From the NCBI RefSeq assembly GCF_014199215.1, contig NZ_JACIJC010000001.1, positions 250,001 to 314,000 on the forward strand: DNA of 64,000 bases, read 5' to 3'. This document shows positions 21,025 to 61,407 of the stretch, piece by piece. This DNA is from Sphingobium boeckii (GTDB taxonomy: Bacteria; Pseudomonadota; Alphaproteobacteria; Sphingomonadales; Sphingomonadaceae). A program made the translations under genes and the position numbers. Under the pieces are notes generated by a model, which had not been told where the DNA came from, did no database searches, and worked only from the letters and a program-made list of their open reading frames with translations. Each line of letters starts with the position of its first letter. The stretch's first letter is position 1.

Positions 21025-21375
21025 GACGCTGCGCCACTTCTTCCTAAAACAGAAAGAAGTATAGCATGGGTGAATTGAGACGCGAAAGCGCAACGCGCTA
21101 TGAAGCGTAAACAATTGTAATGTGTCGTGCACATGGGGCGGATCAGACCGTCAACAATCGTAAATTGATGGCGCGTTGACTTGCGCTTCCGGGTGAAGCG
21201 TATCAAGCCAGTGGCTGGGGAACGCCCGATGCCGGCAGGTCGCGCTGCTCGGGTGCCCGGGATCGCGCGCATCGCGAAGACGGCATCTCTTGTCGAGACC
21301 AGTCGATAGCCGGATTGGCACGCAGCGCATCCCGGGAAACCCCGATGGGGCTTATGCGATATTTCCTGTTAAACA

Positions 21376-21425
21376 TTTGGTCGGGGAAAGAGGATTCGAA
21401 CCTCCGGCCCCTGCCTCCCGAAGAC
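21376..21425. repeat. attL: attL: left prophage attachment repeat (tRNA-Pro 3' fragment)
   Basis: These 50 bases are identical to 61329-61378, which is the 3' part of the tRNA-Pro gene from the anticodon loop through the T arm to CCA. The match breaks at both sides. This copy is the displaced 3' end of the original tRNA, left behind when the phage integrated. Confidence 0.95.
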
Positions 21426-22141: not shown

Positions 22142-22392
22142 GATGTCACCTCGGCGCTCGTCTCAGCCGCGGCCTTGGCCACGCCCTTGTCCTTGGCCGC
22201 GATCCCGAAGCCGCCGGCCGCCAGGATCGCCGCCGCGCCCGCGCCGAACTCCACCGGGTTGAACGGCTGCTTGTTGTAAAACACGTCGATCCCCTGATAA
22301 GCCACCAGCGCCATGCCCATGAAGGCCCAGAGCATCCGGCCCAGTTCGAATTCGCCGCTGATCCCTTTCAGGATCTGGGAAAGGCCGTTCAT
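22138..22392 (-). CDS. Putative holin
   Basis: This small protein of 84 residues has two hydrophobic segments (RMLWAFMGMALVAYQGIDVF and GAGAAAILAAGGFGIAA) separated by a short polar turn, and a charged tail. The start MNGLSQ is chosen because its ATG overlaps the stop of the lysis enzyme by 4 bases. Holin function is inferred from topology and from the position between the cell-wall enzyme and the spanins. A two-segment holin is the likeliest class. Confidence 0.75.
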   Translation of the reverse strand: MNGLSQILKGISGEFELGRMLWAFMGMALVAYQGIDVFYNKQPFNPVEFGAGAAAILAAGGFGIAAKDKGVAKAAAETSAEVTS

Positions 22393-22754
22393 GTCACCAC
22401 CTCGAGCGAACGGTCGCCACTCGCCCATATCCGATCCCGGATAGCGCGCGGCAAAATGATGCACCCGTGACTGGCGGTGCCTGGCGCGCGAATGCTGTCC
22501 CCATGGATGCGAAACGCCGATCGTCCGAAGGTCTGTGTGCCGGGCCTAGGGTCGAGGATCAGCGCGGCGGGGCCGACGTTCGCGCTATTGTATCGCCCGG
22601 TGATCAGCCAATGCCCCGCGGGGATCGGACCCACCGCCACCAGCGCCTGCATTGCAGGGTTGTTTTTGCCCCGGCCTGCGCCCGAATAACCTTTGCTGAT
22701 CAGCACGCCATCGCGCGTCAATTCGCCGGCCGATTGGTCCCATTTCCAACCCAT
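22389..22754 (-). CDS. L,D-transpeptidase-like (DUF2778/Tlde1-type) phage lysis enzyme
   Basis: The protein has about 121 residues and no signal peptide. The C-terminal half carries FRIHGDS and TASHGCIIL, the His and SHGC motif of the YkuD/Tlde1 fold with catalytic Cys. The N-terminal pattern LTRDGVLISKGYSGAGRGKNNP resembles DUF2778 proteins. Tlde1 proteins are known as peptidoglycan L,D-carboxypeptidase or transpeptidase toxins. Here the gene sits directly before a holin and spanins, where an endolysin is expected, and no lysozyme, amidase or transglycosylase lies nearby. Three ATG codons in a row could start it; the third is best spaced from AAGGAG. Confidence 0.78.
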   Translation of the reverse strand: MGWKWDQSAGELTRDGVLISKGYSGAGRGKNNPAMQALVAVGPIPAGHWLITGRYNSANVGPAALILDPRPGTQTFGRSAFRIHGDSIRAPGTASHGCIILPRAIRDRIWASGDRSLEVVT

Positions 22755-22783
22755 CATCATTCTCCTTGTTGAAACCAGTCGGC

Positions 22784-33075: not shown

Positions 33076-33404
33076 TAGACGAGCAGCCCGCTCTCGCAGA
33101 GGCAGAGCATTGCCGCGCGGTCCTTCGGGTCAGGCATCACGGCCTTGATGTCCAGCAGCCGCGCTCCCCAGCGGAAACGATGCTTGGTCGTCAATCCCGC
33201 ACGCGTCCTGATCGTTACGCGCCATTGCTGAACGCTACGCTGCACCCCTGCGGCCAACGCCTCGTCGCCGCTCAGGCCCACAACCTTGCCCCATAGTTTC
33301 GGCTCTTCAACCAACCAGCTTGTCACCTGTCCGCCTTGGCCATTGTTCGCGCTGGTGAGCTGCTCCAACGTCAGCAGCTCTGTCAGATCGCCCGCCGCCG
33401 GCAT
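33075..33404 (-). CDS. Head closure / head-tail adaptor protein
   Basis: The start at MPAAGDLTELL is set by a one-base TGATG overlap with the connector gene. The 109-residue protein has LTLEQLTSANNGQGGQVTSW and a beta-rich body ending WGARLLDIKAV, typical of SPP1 gp16/HK97-type adaptors (head-tail joining family). Confidence 0.83.
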   Translation of the reverse strand: MPAAGDLTELLTLEQLTSANNGQGGQVTSWLVEEPKLWGKVVGLSGDEALAAGVQRSVQQWRVTIRTRAGLTTKHRFRWGARLLDIKAVMPDPKDRAAMLCLCESGLLV

Positions 33405-34033
33405 CAGAGGACCGGCCTGTATTTGTCGAGAATATCCATAGCCGTCTGCGGAACTTCGACCATGCTCCCTGCCGCGACAGCCTCGCGGTTCGCGTGCCAA
33501 TGGGCCACCATCTGAAGCATCGCCACCTTAAGCGCCTGTGGAACTGCGTCCGCTTCATAGCCGGCAAGATAGGCGACCTTCACGACGCCGTTGCGCCGCG
33601 TCTCCGGCCAGGCCGTCAGAGGATAGATTTCCACGGGTGCCGCATCCGCATCGTAAACGGCGTCGACATAGGTCTGCGCAGTCCCGTCGCTATCCTTATA
33701 AGTTATGCCGCTGATCGAGGCCACGGGACGCCAGAGCAGCATGATGGGCGAAGCGAAGTGGCGGAATGTTTCAGTCACTGTGCGCTGCATCAGCACATGG
33801 CCGGTATGCACCTCCGCAAATTCCCGTGCGGCCACGATATAGCCAGAGATCAGATCGTCTTCGCTATCGTCCAGCACGCGGCACTGCGCCTTCGCCAGCT
33901 CCAGTGAGATCGGCTCTTCAATGATCGTCTCGGCGATCGTGGCGGTAGTATAGGCCGCATAGGCCTCGGCCACGTCTTCATCGGGCACTTCGGGGCCAAT
34001 CCCGAGGATCTCGCGCATATCGTCGATCGTCAT
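33404..34033 (-). CDS. Head-tail connector protein (gp6-like)
   Basis: The 209-residue protein contains EEPISLELAKAQCRVLDDSEDDLISGYIVAAREFAE, the helix pair of HK97 gp6/phiE125 gp8 connectors, followed by a beta domain (YKDSDGTAQTYVDAVYD) and a C-terminal helix AVPQALKVAMLQMVAHW. It would form the ring under the portal. Confidence 0.88.
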   Translation of the reverse strand: MTIDDMREILGIGPEVPDEDVAEAYAAYTTATIAETIIEEPISLELAKAQCRVLDDSEDDLISGYIVAAREFAEVHTGHVLMQRTVTETFRHFASPIMLLWRPVASISGITYKDSDGTAQTYVDAVYDADAAPVEIYPLTAWPETRRNGVVKVAYLAGYEADAVPQALKVAMLQMVAHWHANREAVAAGSMVEVPQTAMDILDKYRPVL

Positions 34034-34254
34034 TGCAGCGCCTCGAATGTGGCGAGGTAAAACCCCGGATTATCAGGCGACTTCCAAACCGATATCCGGA
34101 TGGTCTCCCCGTTCAGCAGCGCGCCGTTCGCCGACTCTGGCTTTTTGGTGCGGATGTTGGGCTGAAACGAAAGCACCCCGTCGGAAACCCCACAAAGGCC
34201 ATTATGCACCCCCGCGATGATGAGATGGCCCTGCGTCCCATTATCGATTTTCAT
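34030..34254 (-). CDS. Small hypothetical phage protein
   Basis: The 74-residue protein starts MKIDNGTQGHLIIAG. It overlaps both neighbours by 4 bases, which supports real translation. No family is recognised. Confidence 0.6.
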   Translation of the reverse strand: MKIDNGTQGHLIIAGVHNGLCGVSDGVLSFQPNIRTKKPESANGALLNGETIRISVWKSPDNPGFYLATFEALQ

Positions 34255-34745
34255 TGCTGCCTCACGGTCAGGACGGCCGTCCGCTCATAATCCTTGTAAG
34301 GATCCGCAGAGGTGCGGATCAATGCAGCCACGCCAACGTTGATGCCGCCGCCGGCGAACGCCGCGTCGCCTTGGAATGCGTCGTCCACCAAAAACCACAT
34401 CTGGATCTTCTTGCCCTCAGTATCGATGATCGGCAGCCGCTCCGCGCCCTCGTCGATTTCAACCCCCAACGCCGCGCCCGTGGCGGATATGGTCAGGCGC
34501 ACGATCTCTGCGATCGTCTCGTCATCGGCTAGAAGGGCGCTCCAGTCGATCGCAAATGGGGCGCGATCGCTCGGGTCGAAATGCGCGGTCCAGGCGAACG
34601 AACCAATCGGCAGATTACCGCCGCGCGCCGCGTTGCCAGGAGAGGTCGTCACGATCACCGTGCGTTCGCTCGGCGCGGTCACCGCCCCTACGCCCGCCTC
34701 GATCTCGGTCGCGAACAGGCCGAGCGCGATTAAATGGGTCAGCAT
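34251..34745 (-). CDS. Fibre-tail adaptor-like phage protein
   Basis: The start MLTHLIALG is preferred because AAGGTG stands upstream at good spacing. Segments IGSFAWTAHFDPSDRAPFAIDWSALLADDETIA and WFLVDDAFQG recall proteins annotated as fibre-tail adaptors in proteobacterial siphophages, with the pattern in which an Asp/Trp segment precedes LADDETI. It marks the boundary between the fibre-like island and the connector genes. Function is tentative. Confidence 0.6.
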   Translation of the reverse strand: MLTHLIALGLFATEIEAGVGAVTAPSERTVIVTTSPGNAARGGNLPIGSFAWTAHFDPSDRAPFAIDWSALLADDETIAEIVRLTISATGAALGVEIDEGAERLPIIDTEGKKIQMWFLVDDAFQGDAAFAGGGINVGVAALIRTSADPYKDYERTAVLTVRQQ

Positions 34746-34846
34746 CGCACACCTTTCCATTGTCCCATTTTGACGCAGCATTTCCGCGGCATTGGACAGT
34801 TAATAATTTAGAAACCATAATCCCCGAATTCTTGGGGAAGATCTTT

Positions 34847-35545
34847 ATGAAACGATTCGCGATACTTGCGGCCACGGCCGCGCTTGGATTTGCTGCGCCG
34901 GTAGAGGCTGCGACGATCGTTCAGACGGGCAATCTGTCAACAAGCGGCGGCGCGGGCCAGATCGCGAAATTCAATCCAGCAGCCGGCACGCTGCAACAAA
35001 TCCTCTTTTCCATCGGCGGCTACGTCCAAGATCACATCGCGGTTTCCGGCTCGCCTGTTGGCGGACCGGTATCGTTTCAGTCTTCGTGGGGCGGTAAATT
35101 TGGGCTTTATGTTTCATCGGGCGGCGCAAGCGGCACGATCGGTGAGATCACGGATTTTGCGCCCGGCCTCGTCGGCCCGTTTGCGCCATCGTCATATTAT
35201 GAGACTGCGGGGACCGCTTCCGGCAGCGCCTCTGGCTCGATCGACCCTCTTGCCCTGCTGATCGGCCCCGGCTTCGCTTCCATCTATGTGATAACCAGCC
35301 AATCCGCGGCCATGAACTACACGCAATTGACCGGCGCGCCGCACGGGATCACGCAGATCACGGGCCGTGGCGACAATGCGGTCATGAATTATTCGGTTAC
35401 CTATGTGTACGACGACAGCGCGCCAGCGGTCCCAGAACCCGCCACCTGGGCGATGATGCTCATCGGCTTCGGGGCCATTGGCAAATCTATGAGAGCGCCG
35501 CGATTTCGGCGGTCACCTGTTCGATCTCAGCCTCTACGTCTGTGA
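34847..35545 (+). CDS. PEP-CTERM (PEPxxWA type) secreted protein, inserted cargo gene
   Basis: This is the only plus-strand gene within the minus-strand structural block. It has a Sec signal (MKRFAILAATAALGFAAPVEA), a Gly/Ser-rich beta body of about 180 residues, and a C-terminal sorting signal VPEPATWAMMLIGFGAIG followed by a basic tail. Such proteins are cut by an exosortase and sent to the cell surface or matrix. No exosortase gene lies here, so the host must supply it. The last 20 residues are read antisense to the 3' end of the adjoining small phage gene. A possible promoter is TTGGAC (34792) with CATAAT (34816), 18 bases apart. Confidence 0.88.
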   Translation: MKRFAILAATAALGFAAPVEAATIVQTGNLSTSGGAGQIAKFNPAAGTLQQILFSIGGYVQDHIAVSGSPVGGPVSFQSSWGGKFGLYVSSGGASGTIGEITDFAPGLVGPFAPSSYYETAGTASGSASGSIDPLALLIGPGFASIYVITSQSAAMNYTQLTGAPHGITQITGRGDNAVMNYSVTYVYDDSAPAVPEPATWAMMLIGFGAIGKSMRAPRFRRSPVRSQPLRL

Positions 35546-35687
35546 CGAGCTTTTGGCAGCGCGCCACGGCTTCCGCCCGCTGTTCTTGATTTGCAAACGA
35601 GCGCGCTTGAATCAACGAATGCCTGAAAATCGCCAGATCGTTTTCAAGCTGCGCCTTTTTTGCCAATAATTCATCCATGTTAAACAT
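35487..35687 (-). CDS. Small coiled-coil phage protein
   Basis: The 66-residue protein is almost wholly helical and charged (MDELLAKKAQLENDLAIF, TDVEAEIEQVTAEIAAL). It follows the glycosidase gene by 2 bases and could be a fibre chaperone or trimerisation factor. Its 3' end overlaps the PEP-CTERM gene by 59 bases tail to tail. Confidence 0.68.
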   Translation of the reverse strand: MFNMDELLAKKAQLENDLAIFRHSLIQARSFANQEQRAEAVARCQKLVTDVEAEIEQVTAEIAALS

Positions 35688-35689
35688 CC

Positions 35690-37981
35690 TTAAATCGCGG
35701 CTTGGGCTTCAAGGAAGCCTGCCCATTTGGGCGATTCCTCTAGCGTCGCGTTCTGGTTTTTCTTTGCCCCCCATGACCCATAATATGGGTGCGGTTCGCC
35801 AATGCTATTGAAGAAGCACAGCACATCGCCAAAATCAGAAGCCCAGCGCAATAGCCCATCTCTGATCAACTCACGCATCCGATCATCCGTTTGGAAGGCT
35901 CTCAACTTGGCCTCTTGATCAGGCGTATATCCATTCTCTGGAAATACCACATGCTGTTGCCATTCGTAGCATATCGCACGAAGGCCAGCCGCTTTATAAG
36001 CGGCATTTGTAGAAGCGTAATTGTTCCATGTCGTGTTCATCATGCTTCGCGCTGTGGCGAAAATTGTTTCCAGCGAACCATCGAACATAGAAGGAGTCAT
36101 GCTTCCACCGAAGTAGGGTGCGTTACAGATAGCATCCGTGCGCGTAGCGCCGCGCTGCGTCACAAGATTCAGTTCGTTGCTGGTCCCCATTGCAGTGATT
36201 ACCCGCACAAAGCGTCCTGTGGGCGCGCCGAGGCTGTCCAATATTGTCATCTGTCGCTGATGCTGAAAAGCCTGCTCGTTGCGCGTTGCCATCGCGCCGC
36301 CGCCGTCGGTAAATTCCTCTAAAGTAGCACGACCATTGTCATACGCTTTCTGACGCGCCCTATGGTAGAGTCCGAATGCGGCGTTGCCCCACTCGTTTCC
36401 GACCTCGGCGTAAAGTGTAATTCCAGGGTTGACTCCGTTATTTAGGGCCGTGAAGAAGCCACGAACATAGTCGTCAGATGCAAAAGGCGGGGTGTTGACC
36501 CAAGCATCTTTTCCAACCGCGTTGATAAGTGTGATGACGTTCTCAATGGCCATGCCATACGGACGAAAAACATTTAGCCTTCCGTTGGGAGTGCGCTCAT
36601 CCCAGTCGCCTTCAAATGTCTGAAGGTTGTTCGTATTCAAAAAATCCATCAGACGCATTGGGCCATTAAATTCATTCTGACGCGCGATAAACTCAGGCGT
36701 GAACAAATCGACCGTGGGGTCCCGATCAAGCTCGCACGCAACGATGTTTCGCATGTGATTGGCTGGATTGGTGGAATGGACATGAAACATCACCCGCTTC
36801 GGGCCGGTCCAATCGTGCCCATAGGTAAATTGCCTGAAATTGGCTCCGGATGTCTCTCCGGTGACCGTGACGCCATCAGCCAAAAGGCTAGTTACCGCCT
36901 CACCATCCCACTCGACACGAACAACTGATCCCGGTGTATCGGGTCTGGTTATGCCTGCGACAAGATGGCCTGAAGGATTATGTGTCCCATTTGGTGAACT
37001 AATAGGCTCACCATCGAGATTGATGTGCGCTGATCCGGGTAGCGCCTCGGGATTGTCGAGCAGAGTCCCGTCTTGCCAGCCTGATGCGAGTAAAAGATTG
37101 GTATAGGCTCGTTCGTATCCATAAGAGCTAAGGCCGGCGAGGTTCATGCCGAACTGAGCAGGTGCCGGAACGGTTATAATTGCTGTTTTATTGATTGTCG
37201 GATTGTCATTAAGAATAGCTTTAACCGTGATAGCGCCGACGCTTCCGCCGATTGGCAAGGTCCGCAAGGTGGCTTCACCCGCAACTGTGTTGGTGAGCAA
37301 AACCGCATCGTTCTCGGAGCCGTTGTTCAACGTATATTTATAGCCGGATGGCGTATCGCTGTAGAGAATGTCGATTTCGAACCAATTGTTAGCAATGTCA
37401 TATCGAACATCAGGGATTCGAAGATCGACACCTCCAACGCCATAAATGATATTGCTAGCAGCGCCCCCAGAGGCTTTAGCGAAGCTGACACCCGTGCCTC
37501 GATCCGGCTGAAACGTGTTGACGGATGATCCAGATATCACAGATGCAGGAACTAATTCATCATCAAGATACAGGCCTAACGCGCCGTTAGTTTCCACACG
37601 GGCTTCTATTACTGAATACAGGTTCCATGCTTGAGGTACGGCCTGATAAATCCATGGCCCCAGCCCAGTGGTGCTTAGAACGCCGTCGATAACTCTATGT
37701 AAAGTGAAGTGGTCGCTATTTCCGCGAGCGTAACACCAGCCATTATTGATATCGATCATGTTCAGATACAGGCGGAAATCATGATCGACGCCGCCAGTAT
37801 CAAATTTGACGAAATGAGCCTCTACACCGGTGTCTCGGAAGCCGATATTGGTCGAAGACGCTATTACTGTTGGGGGAACCTGTGGGTTCGGGATAAAGGT
37901 ACCCGGCGCAGGCGTAGGCGTAGGCGTAGGCTGCCGGCGCAGCGCCACCCGCCTGAACGATTTACGACGCGCCAGGACCAT
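35690..37981 (-). CDS. Virion-associated glycoside hydrolase (clan A-like), putative depolymerase
   Basis: The 763-residue protein opens with a basic segment and a PTPTPTPAPG linker. A lectin-like beta domain (about 45-190) and an Ig-like region come next, then a TIM-barrel glycosidase of about 290-760. The probable acid/base is Glu near 529 in YAEVGNEWGN (the Asn-Glu motif of clan GH-A) and the nucleophile Glu near 673 in ICYEWQQH. The 144-residue spacing fits that clan. Base composition is clearly more AT-rich than its neighbours, suggesting separate acquisition. TAATG overlap couples it to the esterase gene. It probably attacks a capsule or exopolysaccharide. Confidence 0.8.
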   Translation of the reverse strand: MVLARRKSFRRVALRRQPTPTPTPAPGTFIPNPQVPPTVIASSTNIGFRDTGVEAHFVKFDTGGVDHDFRLYLNMIDINNGWCYARGNSDHFTLHRVIDGVLSTTGLGPWIYQAVPQAWNLYSVIEARVETNGALGLYLDDELVPASVISGSSVNTFQPDRGTGVSFAKASGGAASNIIYGVGGVDLRIPDVRYDIANNWFEIDILYSDTPSGYKYTLNNGSENDAVLLTNTVAGEATLRTLPIGGSVGAITVKAILNDNPTINKTAIITVPAPAQFGMNLAGLSSYGYERAYTNLLLASGWQDGTLLDNPEALPGSAHINLDGEPISSPNGTHNPSGHLVAGITRPDTPGSVVRVEWDGEAVTSLLADGVTVTGETSGANFRQFTYGHDWTGPKRVMFHVHSTNPANHMRNIVACELDRDPTVDLFTPEFIARQNEFNGPMRLMDFLNTNNLQTFEGDWDERTPNGRLNVFRPYGMAIENVITLINAVGKDAWVNTPPFASDDYVRGFFTALNNGVNPGITLYAEVGNEWGNAAFGLYHRARQKAYDNGRATLEEFTDGGGAMATRNEQAFQHQRQMTILDSLGAPTGRFVRVITAMGTSNELNLVTQRGATRTDAICNAPYFGGSMTPSMFDGSLETIFATARSMMNTTWNNYASTNAAYKAAGLRAICYEWQQHVVFPENGYTPDQEAKLRAFQTDDRMRELIRDGLLRWASDFGDVLCFFNSIGEPHPYYGSWGAKKNQNATLEESPKWAGFLEAQAAI

Positions 37982-39333
37982 TACGGCAGCGTCGCCGGCA
38001 GCGGCCAGACGCCAGCCTGCGCGATCTTGATGCTCCCCAGAGCGCCGGCTGTGACGCCCTTGTTGAACGAGACCAAAAACGGCATCCCCGCCGCGCCGGA
38101 TGGCAGCGCCATAGTGCCCGGATAGCGCATTTTCAGTATTTCGGTTACCGTCGGCACCAGATTAGCCGCAGGGGTCACGGCACCGGTATTGTTGTCATAG
38201 CCGCCCAGCGTCGCGCCGTTCAATTGCAACATGAACCCGTTGCAGCCGATGAGATTTTCAATCTGCACGAGCGCGCTCGCATAGCAAAGAATGCCAGCGC
38301 CGGGCGAAGCAAAGCCGCCGCCGCCCATCCCGAGCGAAACGGATCGCCCCTGGGTCAAAGTGGTGGTGGCAGTGAAAGTCAACTTCTGCGCGACATGGGT
38401 CACGCCATCGACGACAATCGTGTCCTTCGCGGCGACGCAAGTGATTTCGCCCGAGCCGTCACCGCCCATATCCCAGCCTGTCGCGACATTGCCGGTGACC
38501 CCGGTGCCCTTGCCGCCCGACGTCCCGATGAACGCACCGCGGTCGCCGACCAGATTCCCATAGGGCTGGTCGCTGGCATTGTAGTTTCCGATCTGGCCGA
38601 CCGCGATATAATCAACGACCGGGACGCCGAGGATGTCCATCATCACGTCCCATTTGTCGCGAGCCGCGCGCGCGCCGAATGTGCTGGGATGGAGTCCATC
38701 AAAGGTGACCGCCGTAGCGCCGCCGCCCGCACCACCGATCAGACCGTTCGTCGCGCTCGTGTCGTCCAGAAACTCGGGATACAGATCCATGTAATGGATG
38801 CGTGAATCGACCGTCTGCCAATAGCGATAGAGCGCATTTGTGTGCATGTAGTTTCCGGCCGAACTTGCGCGCGGGAGAATGGAAACCACGATATATTTCT
38901 TGGCATTGGTCTGGCCGACGAACGATTTCACGTTCGCAAACGTCTCGTTATAGGCGGTCGACCCCCGATCGTTCGTGCCGATCTCGATCACGCAAATGTC
39001 TGGCGAAATGGCATTCACCGCATTGCGCACCAGCGCGGTATTCATGTCCGGCGTGTTGGTGCCGAATGTCGTGGTCGCAGCGTGGCCGGTCGTAGCGCCG
39101 GACCATGATCCGCTGCGGGCGAGGTTGTAGGAGTCGTTCGAGCCGTCCCACCCTTTGTTGTTCCAGGCATAGAGCCGAGGCTTTCGGACCTGCGCCCAAA
39201 ACCACGGGCTACTAAGCCCATTGCCGGCGATGGCCGCGGCAATGCTGTCGCCGACAACGACGATCTTGGGCGGGCGGCCGAAGGATGATGCTGATGCGGC
39301 TGCCGATACCGGCTGCGTGACGGGGCCACCCAT
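37981..39333 (-). CDS. SGNH/GDSL-family hydrolase in fibre island
   Basis: The start MGGPVTQPV is fixed by a TAATG overlap with the upstream gene. The SGNH blocks are readable: block I KIVVVGDSIAAA with Ser30, block III IEIGTNDRGS, and block V FDGLHPSTFG with catalytic Asp and His. The hydrolase spans about 20-240, and the remaining 200 residues are a beta-rich, fibre-like domain. Phage SGNH enzymes often remove O-acetyl groups from host polysaccharides. Pairing with a glycosidase one gene away supports that role. Confidence 0.87.
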   Translation of the reverse strand: MGGPVTQPVSAAASASSFGRPPKIVVVGDSIAAAIAGNGLSSPWFWAQVRKPRLYAWNNKGWDGSNDSYNLARSGSWSGATTGHAATTTFGTNTPDMNTALVRNAVNAISPDICVIEIGTNDRGSTAYNETFANVKSFVGQTNAKKYIVVSILPRASSAGNYMHTNALYRYWQTVDSRIHYMDLYPEFLDDTSATNGLIGGAGGGATAVTFDGLHPSTFGARAARDKWDVMMDILGVPVVDYIAVGQIGNYNASDQPYGNLVGDRGAFIGTSGGKGTGVTGNVATGWDMGGDGSGEITCVAAKDTIVVDGVTHVAQKLTFTATTTLTQGRSVSLGMGGGGFASPGAGILCYASALVQIENLIGCNGFMLQLNGATLGGYDNNTGAVTPAANLVPTVTEILKMRYPGTMALPSGAAGMPFLVSFNKGVTAGALGSIKIAQAGVWPLPATLP

Positions 39334-40109
39334 TATGCGGTCCTCTCGGTCACGCGCGCATTGCCGGTCGCGCTCGCCCAATAGCCCTTGACGATGCCCT
39401 TCCAATCGTCGGGAATCTCGAAGATGCCGCCGACCGCGCTGGTGCCCATGCCGTCGATCGCATAGCTGTAATTCGTGGCGCTCGCCGTGCCGCTGCCAAG
39501 CAGGATATAGCAGATCGCCGTGCTTTCATTGACGATCGACCCACCCATACGGTTGGCATTGGCCGCGAGCAGGGTGGTGGATGCCGCTGCGCCTTCCACC
39601 GTGCTGGTCGTGCCGGTCGTGGAGCCTGCCATGCCGACGGCGAACACCGCGTCGGAGGCCGGGGCCATCGACATGCTGAGCGCCGCGGTCTTGGCACCGA
39701 GCGTCGCGGGGAGCTTGGCGGACATGGCGCTGGATAAAGCCTCAAGGCCATCAACATAGCCGTTCAGCGCACCGATCAGCGTTTCGAGCGTGTCGGTGTT
39801 CGCGTTGCCCGTCGTCAGGGCAGCATTCGTGGCCGCGACAAGCGCTTCCAGGCCGTCAACGAACCCGTTCTGCGTCGTGAGCAGCGTGTTCGTGGATCCG
39901 ATGAGCGCCTCCAGTCCATCGACGTTGTCGACGATGGACTTCAGCCGCCCAGCGATCGACAGCGCGTTTGGCGAGGCAGTGAGATCGCCGAGGATATTCT
40001 CGCCCGCCCAATCGGCGATAAGGTTGGCCAACGCCAGACCTTTCACGCCAAGATCGAGGCCCGCCAGCGGATCGCCCGCCGTTGTCGTAATGACCGGTTC
40101 AAGTGCCAT
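39333..40109 (-). CDS. Repeat-containing fibre-like phage protein
   Basis: Residues 50-130 contain four tandem copies of a unit of about 20-28 residues built around VDGLEALIGSTNTLLTTQN, VDGLEALVAATNAALTTGN and VDGLEALSSAM. This would form a trimeric coiled-coil or beta-helical shaft. The C-terminal part (about 150-258) is Ser/Thr-rich and ends GIVKGYWASATGNARVTE. It lies between the Ig-like protein and the SGNH hydrolase and may be the stalk that carries the enzymes. Confidence 0.72.
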   Translation of the reverse strand: MALEPVITTTAGDPLAGLDLGVKGLALANLIADWAGENILGDLTASPNALSIAGRLKSIVDNVDGLEALIGSTNTLLTTQNGFVDGLEALVAATNAALTTGNANTDTLETLIGALNGYVDGLEALSSAMSAKLPATLGAKTAALSMSMAPASDAVFAVGMAGSTTGTTSTVEGAAASTTLLAANANRMGGSIVNESTAICYILLGSGTASATNYSYAIDGMGTSAVGGIFEIPDDWKGIVKGYWASATGNARVTERTA

Positions 40110-40123
40110 GGATGTGGCTTCCT

Positions 40124-40444
40124 TTAAGCCGCGATGATCGCGGTGGTGGCGAGGCTTTTTGCTTTGACGCGGACGCCGTTAGCCAGGGCCGTGACGGCGC
40201 AACGCAACGTCGCACCAACATCGCCGGCGGCGAGCACACGGGTCGCCGCCGTGGCGCCGCTGATGGGCACGCCATCACGAATCCATTGATAGGCGAAGCT
40301 CGGTGCGCGGCTCCATGTGCCCGTCGAACAGGTGAGCGTCTGTCCCTGTGTTCTGGTGCCGGTGATGGCGGGTAGAGCGGAATTGACCGGCGCTTTCCCG
40401 GCGGCATCCGCGGCGGCGCGGCGGGCTGCTGGCGTCCGATACAT
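40124..40444 (-). CDS. Ig-like domain phage surface protein
   Basis: The start MYRTPAARRAAAD gives 106 residues, with a basic N terminus. It holds one Ig-like module (ALPAITGTRTQGQTLTCSTG, YQWIRDGVPISGATAAT, DVGATLRCAVTALANGV) of the kind found in phage capsid decorations and tail proteins. The location two genes after the major capsid gene favours capsid decoration. Confidence 0.72.
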   Translation of the reverse strand: MYRTPAARRAAADAAGKAPVNSALPAITGTRTQGQTLTCSTGTWSRAPSFAYQWIRDGVPISGATAATRVLAAGDVGATLRCAVTALANGVRVKAKSLATTAIIAA

Positions 40445-40445
40445 C

Positions 40446-40673
40446 TCAGCCGCTCTTCTTAGGCGCGGCAACCTTTTTCGGCGCGGGCGTCTTGTTCTTG
40501 TTGACCGCCGCCATTTTGTTATCGAGCGGGGCAGCCTTCTTGGTAGCCAGCTTGACGGCACCGGTGCCGATCAGCCTGGTCGCGTCCAGGTGCGTCACGG
40601 TCCGAATATCACCCGGATTGAACTCACCGTTGTTCATAGTGCGCAGCACTTCAACCTTGACCTCGTCGGTCAT
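40446..40673 (-). CDS. Small Lys-rich phage protein after capsid gene
   Basis: The start MTDEVKVEVLR gives 75 residues. The N-terminal half (NGEFNPGDIRTVTHLDATRL) resembles small head-associated proteins, and the C-terminal half is basic and Pro/Lys-rich (NKNKTPAPKKVAAPKK). It may be a head or head-tail accessory factor. Confidence 0.65.
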   Translation of the reverse strand: MTDEVKVEVLRTMNNGEFNPGDIRTVTHLDATRLIGTGAVKLATKKAAPLDNKMAAVNKNKTPAPKKVAAPKKSG

Positions 40674-40726: not shown

Positions 40727-42127
40727 TCAGACGTTGCCGAAGTCGCCGTAGATCAGCGCGCCGGGCTTCTTGACTGCCAGCGCCACACGCTCTTCGCAGC
40801 GCATGGTGTAGAGATTCTTTTCGAAATCATCGGAATTCTCCGACGCGATTAGAACCTCGGGTGCCATGCGATCGTAAAGCGTCTGCAGTTTGAAACCTCC
40901 GACAAGAAACTTGTCGATCGTCATAGCCGGCGTCGCCACGACCGGCTTGGCCCAGAGGCGTGGCCCGGCAAGCTGCTGCGGATTGGCGAAAATATATCCG
41001 CCAGCAGTGTCTTTGGTCAGCTCGATCGCCGCCCAGTCGGCGTTGTTCATCACCACGCCATCGGTCGGATAAAGCGCCAGCTCCGCCTGCAGCAGCGCAA
41101 TGCGGATGATATCGATCATCGTTTCGGTGCCCGCCGGATTGATCGGCGCAGCATAGGCTGTGGCGTTGGTCACGAGGCCCGAAAGATGCTGGCCGGTACC
41201 ATCGCCGGTAAGCAACTCGCCCTCTTCCGCATAGGCCAGTCCGTAGCGCATCTCGGCATCGACTTCGCCTTGGAGCTGCACGGCGTCGTCCATTGCCTGC
41301 CGCGTGATCTTGGCAAGGTGGGCGATGACACGAACGACTGCGTTGACCTGTTCCCAGACATAAGTCGACGTTGGCTTGGTCGCGCCCTCGGCTACGACCG
41401 CCGCATTGTTCGTGCGTGTGGTCTGGCGCGCATAGTCGATCGAACCGCTGGTGGTGGCGACGACGCTAAGCAGATCCCGCACGGTCATCTGCCGCTGCGG
41501 GAGGCTGGTAACCGTGTTATCGCGGTCGGACCATGCCGTGCCCGCCTGGGCGGCCGTGATCGCCTTCACGCGGCCCCACGGCAGACCCTTCAATTCGAAG
41601 CGCGCACTACCTTGATAGCCCCCGCCCTGGAACGACTTGAACTTGTCGGATCCGGCAACCTGCGCACCGTATGACTTGCTTTCGTCTTCATCGCTGCCAG
41701 GCTTCCGCGCCATCTTTTGTTCGAGCGCTGCCAGCGTTTCGCGCATGGTATTGATCTCGGTCAACACCTTGTCAGTCGAACTTTTTGTTTCTTCACTCAG
41801 TCCGCCGGCCTTCTTTGCTTCCGCCAATGCGTCGTCGGCGGTTTTCATGACCAGCTTGTGCTTTTCGTCGATCGACTTGCGCAGCGAATCCGCCAACTCT
41901 TCCACGGTTTTACCGGTCGGATGATCCTCGGCGTCACGCATATAACGACCCATGCGCCGCTCGCTCTTTGTCATGGGGCCGAGATGTCTGGGCGATGCGG
42001 CCAGGATCGCGAGCATCACGCCGCCATCGCCGAAGGCGCTGATGGCATGGGCGGCCGCCGGCATGGCGGCCATGCCGACCAGGATGAGGCAAGATACCGC
42101 GAGTGCGGTAATAAGGGATTTCGTCAT
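40727..42127 (-). CDS. Major capsid protein (HK97 fold) with N-terminal signal-like segment
   Basis: Residues 150-466 match the HK97 major capsid fold: MTVRDLLSVVATTSGSIDYARQT, AHLAKITRQAMDDA, LTGDGTGQHLSGL, PTDGVVMNNADWAAIELTKD and the C-terminal RCEERVALAVKKPGALIYG. Residues 52-135 are a helical delta (scaffold) domain. Unusually, the first 28 residues (MTKSLITALAVSCLILVGMA and an AHA end) look like a Sec signal. This start has a good ribosome site (GGAG), whereas the alternative MTKSERRM has none. The protease gene lies upstream as usual. Confidence 0.92.
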   Translation of the reverse strand: MTKSLITALAVSCLILVGMAAMPAAAHAISAFGDGGVMLAILAASPRHLGPMTKSERRMGRYMRDAEDHPTGKTVEELADSLRKSIDEKHKLVMKTADDALAEAKKAGGLSEETKSSTDKVLTEINTMRETLAALEQKMARKPGSDEDESKSYGAQVAGSDKFKSFQGGGYQGSARFELKGLPWGRVKAITAAQAGTAWSDRDNTVTSLPQRQMTVRDLLSVVATTSGSIDYARQTTRTNNAAVVAEGATKPTSTYVWEQVNAVVRVIAHLAKITRQAMDDAVQLQGEVDAEMRYGLAYAEEGELLTGDGTGQHLSGLVTNATAYAAPINPAGTETMIDIIRIALLQAELALYPTDGVVMNNADWAAIELTKDTAGGYIFANPQQLAGPRLWAKPVVATPAMTIDKFLVGGFKLQTLYDRMAPEVLIASENSDDFEKNLYTMRCEERVALAVKKPGALIYGDFGNV

Positions 42128-58804: not shown

Positions 58805-59259
58805 ACCCACACGATCCGATCCTCACCGCCGATGATGTGATCCGTGTCGGCGGCGCTTGTCGCAGCGGCGTGGCCCAACTCGTGGCGAGGAAGGCTGGGG
58901 TCATCGCCGCCGCCATGCCGATGTCGGAAATCCTCAAGCTCACGCCCGAATCCGATCAGCATTATGTGCTGAAAGCCGGCCAAGCTGATGGCTATGGCGA
59001 TGGCGATGGCGATGGCGTTGGCTATGGCGATGGCGATGGCGTTGGCGTTGGCGTTGGCTATGGCGTTGGCGTTGGCGATGGCGTTGGCGTTGGCGATGGC
59101 GTTGGCGTTGGCTATGGCGATGGCGTTGGCGTTGGCGATGGCGATGGCGTTGGCTATGGCGATGGCGATGGCGTTGGCGTTGGCGTTGGCTATGGCGTTG
59201 GCTATGGCGATGGCGTTGGCGTTGGCGATGGCGTTGGCGTTGGCCGCGCATATGCCTAG
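58792..59259 (+). CDS. Protein with Gly-Asp/Val/Tyr dipeptide-repeat tail
   Basis: An N-terminal domain of about 65 residues (TADDVIRVGGACRSGVAQLV, MSEILKLTPESDQHYVLKA) is followed by 42 dipeptides GD, GV or GY and a short end GRAYA. The tail is encoded by the hexanucleotide repeat at 58990-59241. The start overlaps the DUF6948-like gene by 13 bases. The N-terminal part is a domain seen in small phage proteins, but I cannot assign a role. Confidence 0.72.
   Translation: MGCLNPHDPILTADDVIRVGGACRSGVAQLVARKAGVIAAAMPMSEILKLTPESDQHYVLKAGQADGYGDGDGDGVGYGDGDGVGVGVGYGVGVGDGVGVGDGVGVGYGDGVGVGDGDGVGYGDGDGVGVGVGYGVGYGDGVGVGDGVGVGRAYA
58990..59241 (+). repeat. Hexanucleotide tandem repeat, 42 units
   Basis: 42 units of GGC followed by GAT, GTT or TAT run without interruption. 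A higher-order pattern exists: eight consecutive units (Y D D V V V Y V) occur at units 6-13 and again at 28-35. Copy-number change by slippage would keep the frame. Confidence 0.97.
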
Positions 59260-59674
59260 CGAGCCCTCTCAGGATCGAGGGGGCTATGCCCCCTCGATCA
59301 ACACTCAGCGTCAGCCCGTCCGTATCCAGCGCAGTCGCCGAAAGGGATCGCGCACGCCCGAGGGCGTCATCTATGTCGGGCGTCCCACCATCTTCGGCAA
59401 TCCATTTTCGCACCAGCGCTTCGGTCATGCCAAATCCGTGCGGCTCTATGATCGTTGGATCGATGGCAGGCTGGGTGATCTGACACTCGAACGCCTGGGC
59501 TTCTGCCCCGCCCAGATCGAGGCGCTGCACCGCTGGCGCGCACGGTTGATCGATCGCCTACCCAGCATTGCTGGCCGCGACATTCAATGTTGGTGCCCGG
59601 CGACCAGCCGTTGGTGCCACGGCAACATCCTGCTCGATCGCGCCAATCAGATGATTCCTGCGGCGCCTTACTGA
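59252..59674 (+). CDS. DUF4326 family protein
   Basis: The start MPSEPSQDRGG overlaps the repeat gene by 8 bases. VIYVGRPTIFGNPF is the DUF4326 hallmark, with DIQCWCPATSRWCHGNILL at the C-terminal end. The family is common in phages and has no known reaction. The frame is also open through the repeat, but translation of an AMAL stretch there is unlikely. Confidence 0.85.
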   Translation: MPSEPSQDRGGYAPSINTQRQPVRIQRSRRKGSRTPEGVIYVGRPTIFGNPFSHQRFGHAKSVRLYDRWIDGRLGDLTLERLGFCPAQIEALHRWRARLIDRLPSIAGRDIQCWCPATSRWCHGNILLDRANQMIPAAPY

Positions 59675-60100: not shown

Positions 60101-60451
60101 GTGAAATACGAGCCAATTGACCCTCGCAAGCCATTCACGGTCAAAACTCTGGCCGTCTATTGGGATTGCAGCGAAGGCGTGATTCGCAAGCTGATCGAGC
60201 GGCAGGAGTTGCAATCCTTCCGGATCGGCGATTTGATCCGCATCCGTGCGGCCGAAGTAGAGAGATTCGAATGTCAGACCAGCCTTTCACCATCCAGCGA
60301 CTGCGCGGAGCATGGGCCATCGTCTGGCGAGATGGGGATGGAAACCGACATAGACAGGCTCTTGCCGCCCCCGATCGCATCGGGGCAGAGGCCGAGGCGC
60401 GCCAGCGCTGGCGGCTCGGCAACCGTTCTCGAAGGACCGTGGGCGGATTAG
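60101..60451 (+). CDS. Excisionase/AlpA-like HTH protein overlapping the integrase
   Basis: The GTG start is followed by PFTVKTLAVYWDCSEGVIRK and LIERQELQSFRIGDLIRIRAAEVERF, a MerR-type HTH_17 as in excisionases. The domain ends near residue 55, just where the integrase starts in another frame. The remaining 60 residues (181 bases) overlap the integrase gene and have no family resemblance. Confidence 0.82.
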   Translation: MKYEPIDPRKPFTVKTLAVYWDCSEGVIRKLIERQELQSFRIGDLIRIRAAEVERFECQTSLSPSSDCAEHGPSSGEMGMETDIDRLLPPPIASGQRPRRASAGGSATVLEGPWAD

Positions 60452-61299
60452 TCGAGGCCTACCTTGCGGATCGCAAGGCCGAGGGCATCGTCACTGCTGA
60501 CCGCCAGGCCGATGCGTGGAAGGCAATGAAATCCTATTGGGGGGATGTCAGCCCCAATCTGATCGATAAAGACATGGCACGCGGCTATGCCGCCCGGCGC
60601 AAGGCCGCCACAGCCACCATCCGCTATGAGCTCTCGATGCTGTCCGTCGCGCTGCGCTGGGCGAAGGATGAGAAGTTGATCGATGCTGCGCCAGAGATCT
60701 GGCGGCCTGCGCCACCTGATCGCAAACAGCGTCATCTGTCGCAGCAGGAATTCGAGACGTTCTTCGCCCAGGTGAAGGCACCACATGCCCGCCTCTATGT
60801 GCTATTGGGGTTATACACCATGGCACGCCCGGCCGCGCTGCTCGATCTCACATGGGATCGCGTTGATTGGAAGCGGGGCACGATCGATCTCAATCCGCCC
60901 GGCCGCACCCGGACCGCGAAGAAGCGGGCCGAAACGATCCCGCTGAATGACGAGGCGATCGAGGCACTGAAGCTGGCGTGGACGGCCCGCCAGACCGATT
61001 ATGTCATCGAACGCGGGGGCAAGCGCATCGCCAACGTGAAAAAGCTGTTCCAGGCAGCCAGCGAACGCAGCGGGATCCATGTCACCGCCTATATGCTTCG
61101 CCACACCGGCGCGGTCTGGGCAGCCGAGGCGGGCGCGCCGATGAGCGAGCTGGCGCAGTTCATGGGCCACGATGACAGCCGCACGACTGAGAAACATTAT
61201 GCCCGCTACACACCGGGTTTTCTGCGGGGCGTCGCCAACCGCGTCCGCCGCGCCGAGACAACGGAGGTTCAAATGAACCTTGGCGTCCTGTCCGCTTGA
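60271..61299 (+). CDS. int: Tyrosine-family phage integrase
   Basis: The start MSDQPFTIQRLRG is chosen; a longer frame lies inside the excisionase gene. The SAM-like core-binding domain is at about 55-150 and the catalytic domain at 155-325. Catalytic residues seen are Arg186 (MARPAALLDLTW), Arg277 (YMLRHTG), His300 (FMGHDDSRTT) and Tyr310 (EKHYARY). The His of HxxR appears as Tyr274, a tolerated variant. It lies next to attR and ends 30 bases before the repeat. Confidence 0.94.
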   Translation: MSDQPFTIQRLRGAWAIVWRDGDGNRHRQALAAPDRIGAEAEARQRWRLGNRSRRTVGGLVEAYLADRKAEGIVTADRQADAWKAMKSYWGDVSPNLIDKDMARGYAARRKAATATIRYELSMLSVALRWAKDEKLIDAAPEIWRPAPPDRKQRHLSQQEFETFFAQVKAPHARLYVLLGLYTMARPAALLDLTWDRVDWKRGTIDLNPPGRTRTAKKRAETIPLNDEAIEALKLAWTARQTDYVIERGGKRIANVKKLFQAASERSGIHVTAYMLRHTGAVWAAEAGAPMSELAQFMGHDDSRTTEKHYARYTPGFLRGVANRVRRAETTEVQMNLGVLSA

Positions 61300-61328
61300 T
61301 GCCAAAAACGGCAGAAAACTAGGAAATT

Positions 61329-61378
61329 TTTGGTCGGGGAAAGAGGATTCGAACCTCCGGCCCCTGCCTCCCGAAGAC
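61329..61378. repeat. attR: attR: right prophage attachment repeat
   Basis: These 50 bases are identical to 21376-21425 and form the 3' part of the intact tRNA-Pro. Flanking bases differ at both ends. Phage DNA therefore supplies the 3' half of the functional tRNA. Confidence 0.95.
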
Positions 61379-61407
61379 AGTGCTCTACCAGGCTGAGCTA
61401 TTCCCCG
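61331..61407 (-). tRNA. tRNA-Pro (anticodon CGG)
   Basis: The acceptor stem is CGGGGAA/TTCCCCG and the anticodon loop is TTCGGGA between stems CTGTC and GGCAG. Discriminator A and an encoded CCA are present. G37 next to the CGG anticodon is typical for tRNA-Pro. It is the integration target. Confidence 0.95.

Follow-up and report, generated by a model that had tools for sequence, protein, structure and literature searches.

The window analysed here, the whole 64,000-nucleotide stretch of Sphingobium boeckii DNA, carries a prophage that extends from 21371 to 61378 and is bounded by 55-bp repeats at tRNA-Pro. The repeats are 96% identical over 55 nt and are located in the 3' part of tRNA-Pro 61331-61407. 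The prophage contains genes for an integrase, repressor, primase, terL, portal, protease, capsid, connector and tape measure, and corresponds to the IMG/VR entry UViG_2828356790_000001 (39,162 bp). The att repeats, tRNA gene, integrase and virion genes establish that the phage context is real. No empty attB was shown in the three genomes examined, in each of which the regulator gene of the left flank has different surroundings. The prophage also holds a repeat array with 12- and 18-bp spacing (58942-59289) and, near its left end, a gene for a Tlde1-domain protein (PF10908, 48.6 bits; 22389-22760).

The PEPxxWA-CTERM gene and its place in the prophage

Within the minus-strand structural block a single gene is read from the plus strand (Table 1). 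Its neighbours, the Gp77-like gene and a 66-aa ORF, are both on the minus strand, and its 3' end overlaps the latter by 59 bases; the solitary orientation and the overlap with a phage gene had been predicted, and both are real. The product, P0001, consists of a signal-like stretch at approximately residues 1 to 21, a mature part without a family, and a sorting tail from residue 195. In the ORF translation it begins MKRFAILAATAALGFAAPVEAAT and finishes VPEPATWAMMLIGFGAIGKSMRAPRFRRSPVRSQPLRL. P0001 matches the PEPxxWA-CTERM model NF035944 with an E value of 6.6e-13 and 48.3 bits, above the curated cut-off of 35, which bears out the proposed tail, and it matches Pfam PF07589 at 29 bits (cut-off 20.7). 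The N-terminus agrees with the proposed Sec-type signal when judged by eye, with a basic n-region, a hydrophobic core and a VEA-AT site.

Table 1. Positions in the window of the PEPxxWA-CTERM gene, its neighbours and the prophage ends
Feature	Position	Strand	Basis or remark
att repeat, left prophage end	21371..21425	.	repeat search
Head-tail connector	33404..34033	-	NCBIfam, Pfam, PHROG
Gp77-like fibre-tail adaptor	34251..34781	-	22.6 bits, below Pfam cut-off of 27; relative in contig L030
Sigma-70-like site TGGACA-17-CATAAT	34793..34821	+	10/12 consensus match, 25 nt 5' of start codon
Small hairpin TCCCCGAATTCTTGGGGA	34821..34838	+	overlaps presumed leader, SD and presumed transcript start
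PEPxxWA-CTERM protein gene (P0001)	34847..35545	+	232 aa; ORF list and profile matches
66-aa ORF converging on PEP-CTERM gene	35487..35687	-	59-nt overlap; ORF list
763-aa protein, possible glycoside hydrolase or fibre	35690..37981	-	without family match
GDSL/SGNH hydrolase	37981..39405	-	Pfam, PHROG
Virion structural protein, Hoc/Ig-like	40124..40561	-	weak PHROG matches
Major capsid protein	40727..42127	-	PHROG match
Tyrosine integrase	60160..61299	+	protein matches
att repeat, right prophage end, in tRNA-Pro(CGG) 61331-61407	61324..61378	.	repeat search

The tail has two features that count against reading the gene as a moron, that is, as accessory phage cargo. Its hydrophobic stretch is cut early by a lysine, and its basic end is partly encoded antisense to the 66-aa ORF. 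The residues after the hydrophobic stretch, K-SMRAPRFRRSPVR, are basic, yet unlike the host tails, which mostly read G-x-[AS]-M-R-R/S. A longer frame of 329 aa from an ATG at 34556 is possible; an SD-like GGGGAAG precedes the ATG at 34847, and the signal-like stretch follows this same ATG. The GC content of the gene is 0.60, close to that of the prophage (0.61) and of the left host flank (0.63), and composition is therefore uninformative on its origin.

The intergenic DNA upstream of the gene is only 65 nt long and contains the sigma-70-like site, which 1% of 300 shuffled versions of the 150-nt upstream sequence equalled or bettered. The small hairpin listed in Table 1 may serve as an operator or fold in the leader. 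Terminator-like sites number five in the 1.2 kb scanned, against 1.3 expected, and one of them (35566-35583) lies past the end of the gene on its own strand; its T run is weak.

The prophage has 6.7 kb of DNA separating its capsid and connector genes, which holds the Hoc/Ig-like, GDSL, 763-aa, 66-aa, PEP-CTERM, Gp77-like and other genes. Two syntenic phage stretches from the same bacterial family (L234 and L235), which share the order terL, portal, protease, capsid, connector and tape measure, have gaps of 1.8 and 1.2 kb as measured between match ends, and less between ORFs. The PEP-CTERM gene is absent from both. The difference in gap length from these two relatives leads us to regard the gene as accessory cargo, i.e. 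a moron. Against this reading, the PEP tail pattern was found in none of ten phage stretches of the same family, among which capsid and connector are both visible only in L234 and L235. Repeats near the edges of the cassette are short and imperfect, with no transposition pattern.

The 763-aa protein had been described as a phage glycosidase, a claim that finds no backing in NCBIfam, Pfam, PHROG or PDB sequences, where it has no match; nor does it have a relative in the bacterial genome contigs searched. The 66-aa ORF has no relative in IMG/VR other than its own record, and none among named phages. Together these two genes (35487-37981) have a GC content of 0.52 against 0.61 for the prophage. 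Because of this low GC and the lack of relatives found, they may be recent arrivals.

Host exosortases and relatives of P0001

The host genome encodes two exosortases above cut-off, so that the proposal could not be dismissed for want of a sorting enzyme. XrtA (323 bits) adjoins a TIGR03087 PEP-CTERM/XrtA-system glycosyltransferase, and XrtV (386 bits) is accompanied by EpsI type V. We take XrtV to be the enzyme that serves PEPxxWA tails, and so most likely the one that would act on P0001. PEP-CTERM genes are abundant in the host: P0001 has 26 matches (E ≤ 10), itself included, in 4.03 Mb. For 22 of the 25 others the match starts no earlier than residue 149, which places it in the tail or close by. 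The tail is readable at 13 of 14 other host loci fetched.

No close relative of P0001 was found in named phages or in bacterial genomes; in the latter the best 80 of 469 matches are approximately 30% identical or confined to the tail. Four of 298 sampled genomes of the family match at E ≤ 1e-10, namely its own and three at 30–34% identity, with at most nine candidates scored per genome. Thus, as far as sampled, there is no close copy among the 298 to suggest a common chromosomal gene, the other objection anticipated by the original prediction. Searches of PHROGs (E ≤ 0.01) and of named phages (E ≤ 1) with P0001 gave no match, and a host tail used as query against named phages gave one weak match, OR003939.1 (40%, E 0.9). 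Matches of P0001 to griffithsin in PDB (11 sequences, best E 0.058) were taken as chance.

P0001 shares with the PEP-CTERM/EpsH substrates (NF035944, PF07589, TIGR02595; Haft 2006) a signal-like start, a PEP motif and a hydrophobic stretch, followed by a basic though atypical end, and it is likewise the product of a single gene, with a mature part of no clear family and a host that has exosortases. It differs in that its gene is prophage-borne and its tail is extended via the overlap with a phage ORF. According to PMC1569441, PEP-CTERM proteins mostly form single-gene operons, typically have no recognisable relatives beyond the tail, are proposed to be processed by EpsH and number a median of eight per exosortase genome. 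The same paper reports that large intergenic regions are usual for such genes, with a sigma-54 motif in Proteobacteria; in contrast, the P0001 gene has its short upstream region and sigma-70-like site. No description of a phage-borne exosortase substrate was found in the available parts of PMC12642866, PMC4886054, PMC1569441 and PMC9012009, or in the titles and abstract beginnings of the literature on PEP-CTERM or exosortase and phage.

PEP-CTERM genes in other viral contigs

A scan of IMG/VR with P0001 yielded 33 loci, the prophage itself and 32 in which the best match runs from residue 156 on. A scan of the DNA for the tail pattern gave at least 120 stretches, with 80 loci among the matches listed, and the two scans combined cover at least 97 distinct contigs. 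After exclusion of 4 contigs in which no PEP ORF was legible and of 12 already known to carry virion genes of phage or GTA-like type (one of them the window's own record), we searched 50 records whole, the 49 of at least 20 kb and one of 18 kb. The PEPxxWA-CTERM cut-off was passed by 38 of these 50 candidates and missed by 12. An HK97-type portal was found in five records (L026, L037, L049, L051, L249) and not found in the other 45 of the 50; L023 and L315 are among the contigs without one. Most candidates are therefore putative; those that remain could come from phages of another type, be fragmentary, or be host DNA mistaken for virus.

Contigs L024, L043, L046, L268, L277, L259 and L203 were set apart from the phage evidence, as their portal, protease and capsid genes resemble gene-transfer-agent (GTA) clusters. 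PEPxxWA-CTERM genes lie antisense inside the clusters of L043 (two genes), L046, L268 and L277. If these are indeed GTA clusters, exosortase substrates enter them too.

A PEPxxWA-CTERM gene with both neighbours on the opposite strand, as called by our own crude gene caller, occurs in eight further contigs among those inspected closely (L030, L048, L315, L026, L037, L023, L049 and L285). The closest parallel is L030 (IMGVR_UViG_3300012842_000018), in which a different PEP-CTERM gene lies antisense in the equivalent capsid-connector gap, and L048, a 5.6-kb fragment with the connector only that is 97.4% identical to L030 over 5.6 kb. Like the P0001 gene, the L030/L048 gene encodes a signal-like start and a PEPxxWA-CTERM tail and converges on a minus-strand gene; the shared gap is visible in L030 and not in the L048 fragment. 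However, its mature part is unrelated to that of P0001, and it is directly flanked by genes for a DUF1996 protein and for the connector rather than by the 66-aa ORF and the Gp77-like gene. The DUF1996 protein that adjoins the gene in L030 (8092-9477) has a signal-like start.

Elsewhere the surroundings vary. The antisense PEP gene of L315 is one small ORF past a capsid gene and is followed by a gene with a weak short-tail-fibre match, that of L026 adjoins baseplate J and lies one ORF before P2 GpR, and that of L037 is one small ORF from an endolysin and converges on a 1260-aa gene. In L023 the PEP gene converges on a 1112-aa gene, and a tail-lysozyme-like gene is three ORFs away; in L049 it converges on a 1680-aa gene. 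The PEP gene of L285, a contig of 9.3 kb, is near minus-strand tail genes, and that of L051 converges on tail genes and has its other neighbour on its own strand. An integrase was found in four of ten records searched (L030, L037, L051, L026), and all six phage-borne proteins scanned passed NF035944. The exosortase substrate carried by a phage had been called unusual. That a predicted substrate lies in a real prophage holds, but with comparable antisense genes elsewhere it is not a single oddity.

Lone antisense orientation is modestly in excess among viral PEP genes: both neighbours are opposite for 18 of 78, a figure that counts the window's copy, compared with 129 of the 1015 other genes at those loci, with an uncorrected p of 0.015 and genes called by our own crude caller. 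In bacterial loci there is no difference (21 of 109 against 240 of 1161). The excess lends weak support. Promoter-like sites of 9/12 were seen in two of ten other viral-contig PEP genes, L285 (1% of shuffles) and L051 (5%, the site being 87 nt away), with less or none in the other eight, and this scarcity was counted against the moron reading.

Comparison of the PEP genes of L030 and L048 gives a pN of 0.029 and a pS of 0.145 (pN/pS approximately 0.2), with 11 nonsynonymous and 17 synonymous changes (binomial p 2.7e-5). The low ratio indicates purifying selection, and therefore a gene kept as protein. Its synonymous sites, however, have diverged three times as much as those of two neighbouring genes (0.049 and 0.047), which may reflect recombination.

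In six of nine contigs measured the 3' end of the PEP gene runs into the converging gene, by 80 nt in L285, 59 in the window, 37 in L037, 23 in L049 and 11 each in L030 and L048; in the other three a gap of 19–129 nt separates them. The longer overlaps look as if capture had replaced the native end of the gene. P0001 aligns with the L030 protein over 26 tail residues and nothing else. BLASTP (E ≤ 0.01) among the mature parts of ten such proteins, including P0001, found no match save that of L030 with L048, and eight of the other viral-contig PEP proteins had no match in PHROGs (E ≤ 1). The unrelated mature parts suggest that phages have captured PEP-CTERM genes repeatedly, with the proviso that BLASTP would miss very distant kinship.

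Origin and possible role of the gene

Phage morons, or lysogenic-conversion genes, include bor and lom of lambda, and we know of none described with a PEP-CTERM-type tail. The P0001 gene likewise appears autonomous, lies between phage genes on the opposite strand and is missing from syntenic relatives; however, delivery of its product would depend on a host exosortase. As a moron it would have an ordinary architecture and unusual cargo. We consider it likely that the gene is a moron encoding an exosortase substrate, because the tail scores over the cut-off, the host has XrtA and XrtV, a promoter-like site precedes the gene, the prophage is bounded by att repeats and the gap comparison marks the gene as an addition. 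The L030/L048 gene, the purifying selection on it and the antisense PEP genes beside virion genes in L315, L026 and L037 also argue for this reading.

The promoter-like and SD-like sites, signal-like start and PEPxxWA tail form a self-contained unit between two minus-strand ORFs of an integrated siphophage. Its own promoter would drive the gene while the late operon is silent. P0001 would then be exported by Sec, stay anchored to the inner membrane through a C-terminal helix and be cleaved at the PEP motif by a host exosortase, most likely XrtV, before being passed to the outer surface or the exopolysaccharide matrix. During the lytic cycle, late transcription antisense to the gene would shut it off. 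We regard the gene as a real moron that is probably functional and would rely on an exosortase of the host; the function itself is inferred.

The gene could instead be a neutral passenger, a host PEP-CTERM gene acquired by illegitimate recombination and now decaying. The large host repertoire would supply such genes, the 3' end resembles a junction with phage DNA, and the absence of recognisable relatives outside the tail, typical of the class according to PMC1569441, is also in keeping with this origin. However, the frame is intact and retains its signal-like start and its SD-like and promoter-like sites, the comparable L030/L048 gene is under purifying selection, and such genes recur in other viral contigs; we therefore judge a decaying passenger to be quite unlikely. 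Its position in a block of decoration- and fibre-like genes might point to a component of the virion or the lytic cycle, such as a decoration protein, or one that binds the matrix, expressed together with the late genes. This we hold to be highly improbable, as the gene is on the strand opposite the late genes and a signal with a membrane-sorting tail would route P0001 through the host membrane and not to the capsid.

If the gene is a moron, the advantage it confers probably comes from alteration of the surface or matrix, which would cause aggregation or hide receptors from other phages. Exclusion of other phages is, taken by itself, an unlikely benefit. A tentative but somewhat better-placed special case of the moron reading is that P0001 binds EPS to cells and promotes flocs or biofilm in lysogens, with no anti-phage role. 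PMC9012009 reports that floc formation in Zoogloea required PEP-CTERM proteins, but P0001 is above cut-off for no named PEP-CTERM family besides the tail models. On a wider and more speculative reading, which we regard as possible though somewhat unlikely, temperate phages of exosortase bacteria have acquired a variety of PEP-CTERM genes on many occasions and inserted them opposite the late genes, frequently next to large genes of no assigned family (perhaps fibres) or to decoration or lysis genes. The host exosortase would then offer such phages a common means of delivering conversion proteins, and the cassette would combine the means of entry through the matrix with a protein that alters it against competitors.

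The recurrence in viral contigs makes the case more general, and more interesting, than a single example. If the moron reading is true, conversion genes that belong to no PHROGs family could be discovered as a class by searching prophages for a signal peptide combined with a PEP-CTERM tail. Hosts with exosortases often carry numerous substrates, most of them without an established role; should phages retain and deliver some of these, a selective role, such as phage exclusion or aggregation, becomes testable. Phages of this type may thus remodel the surface of their host cells.
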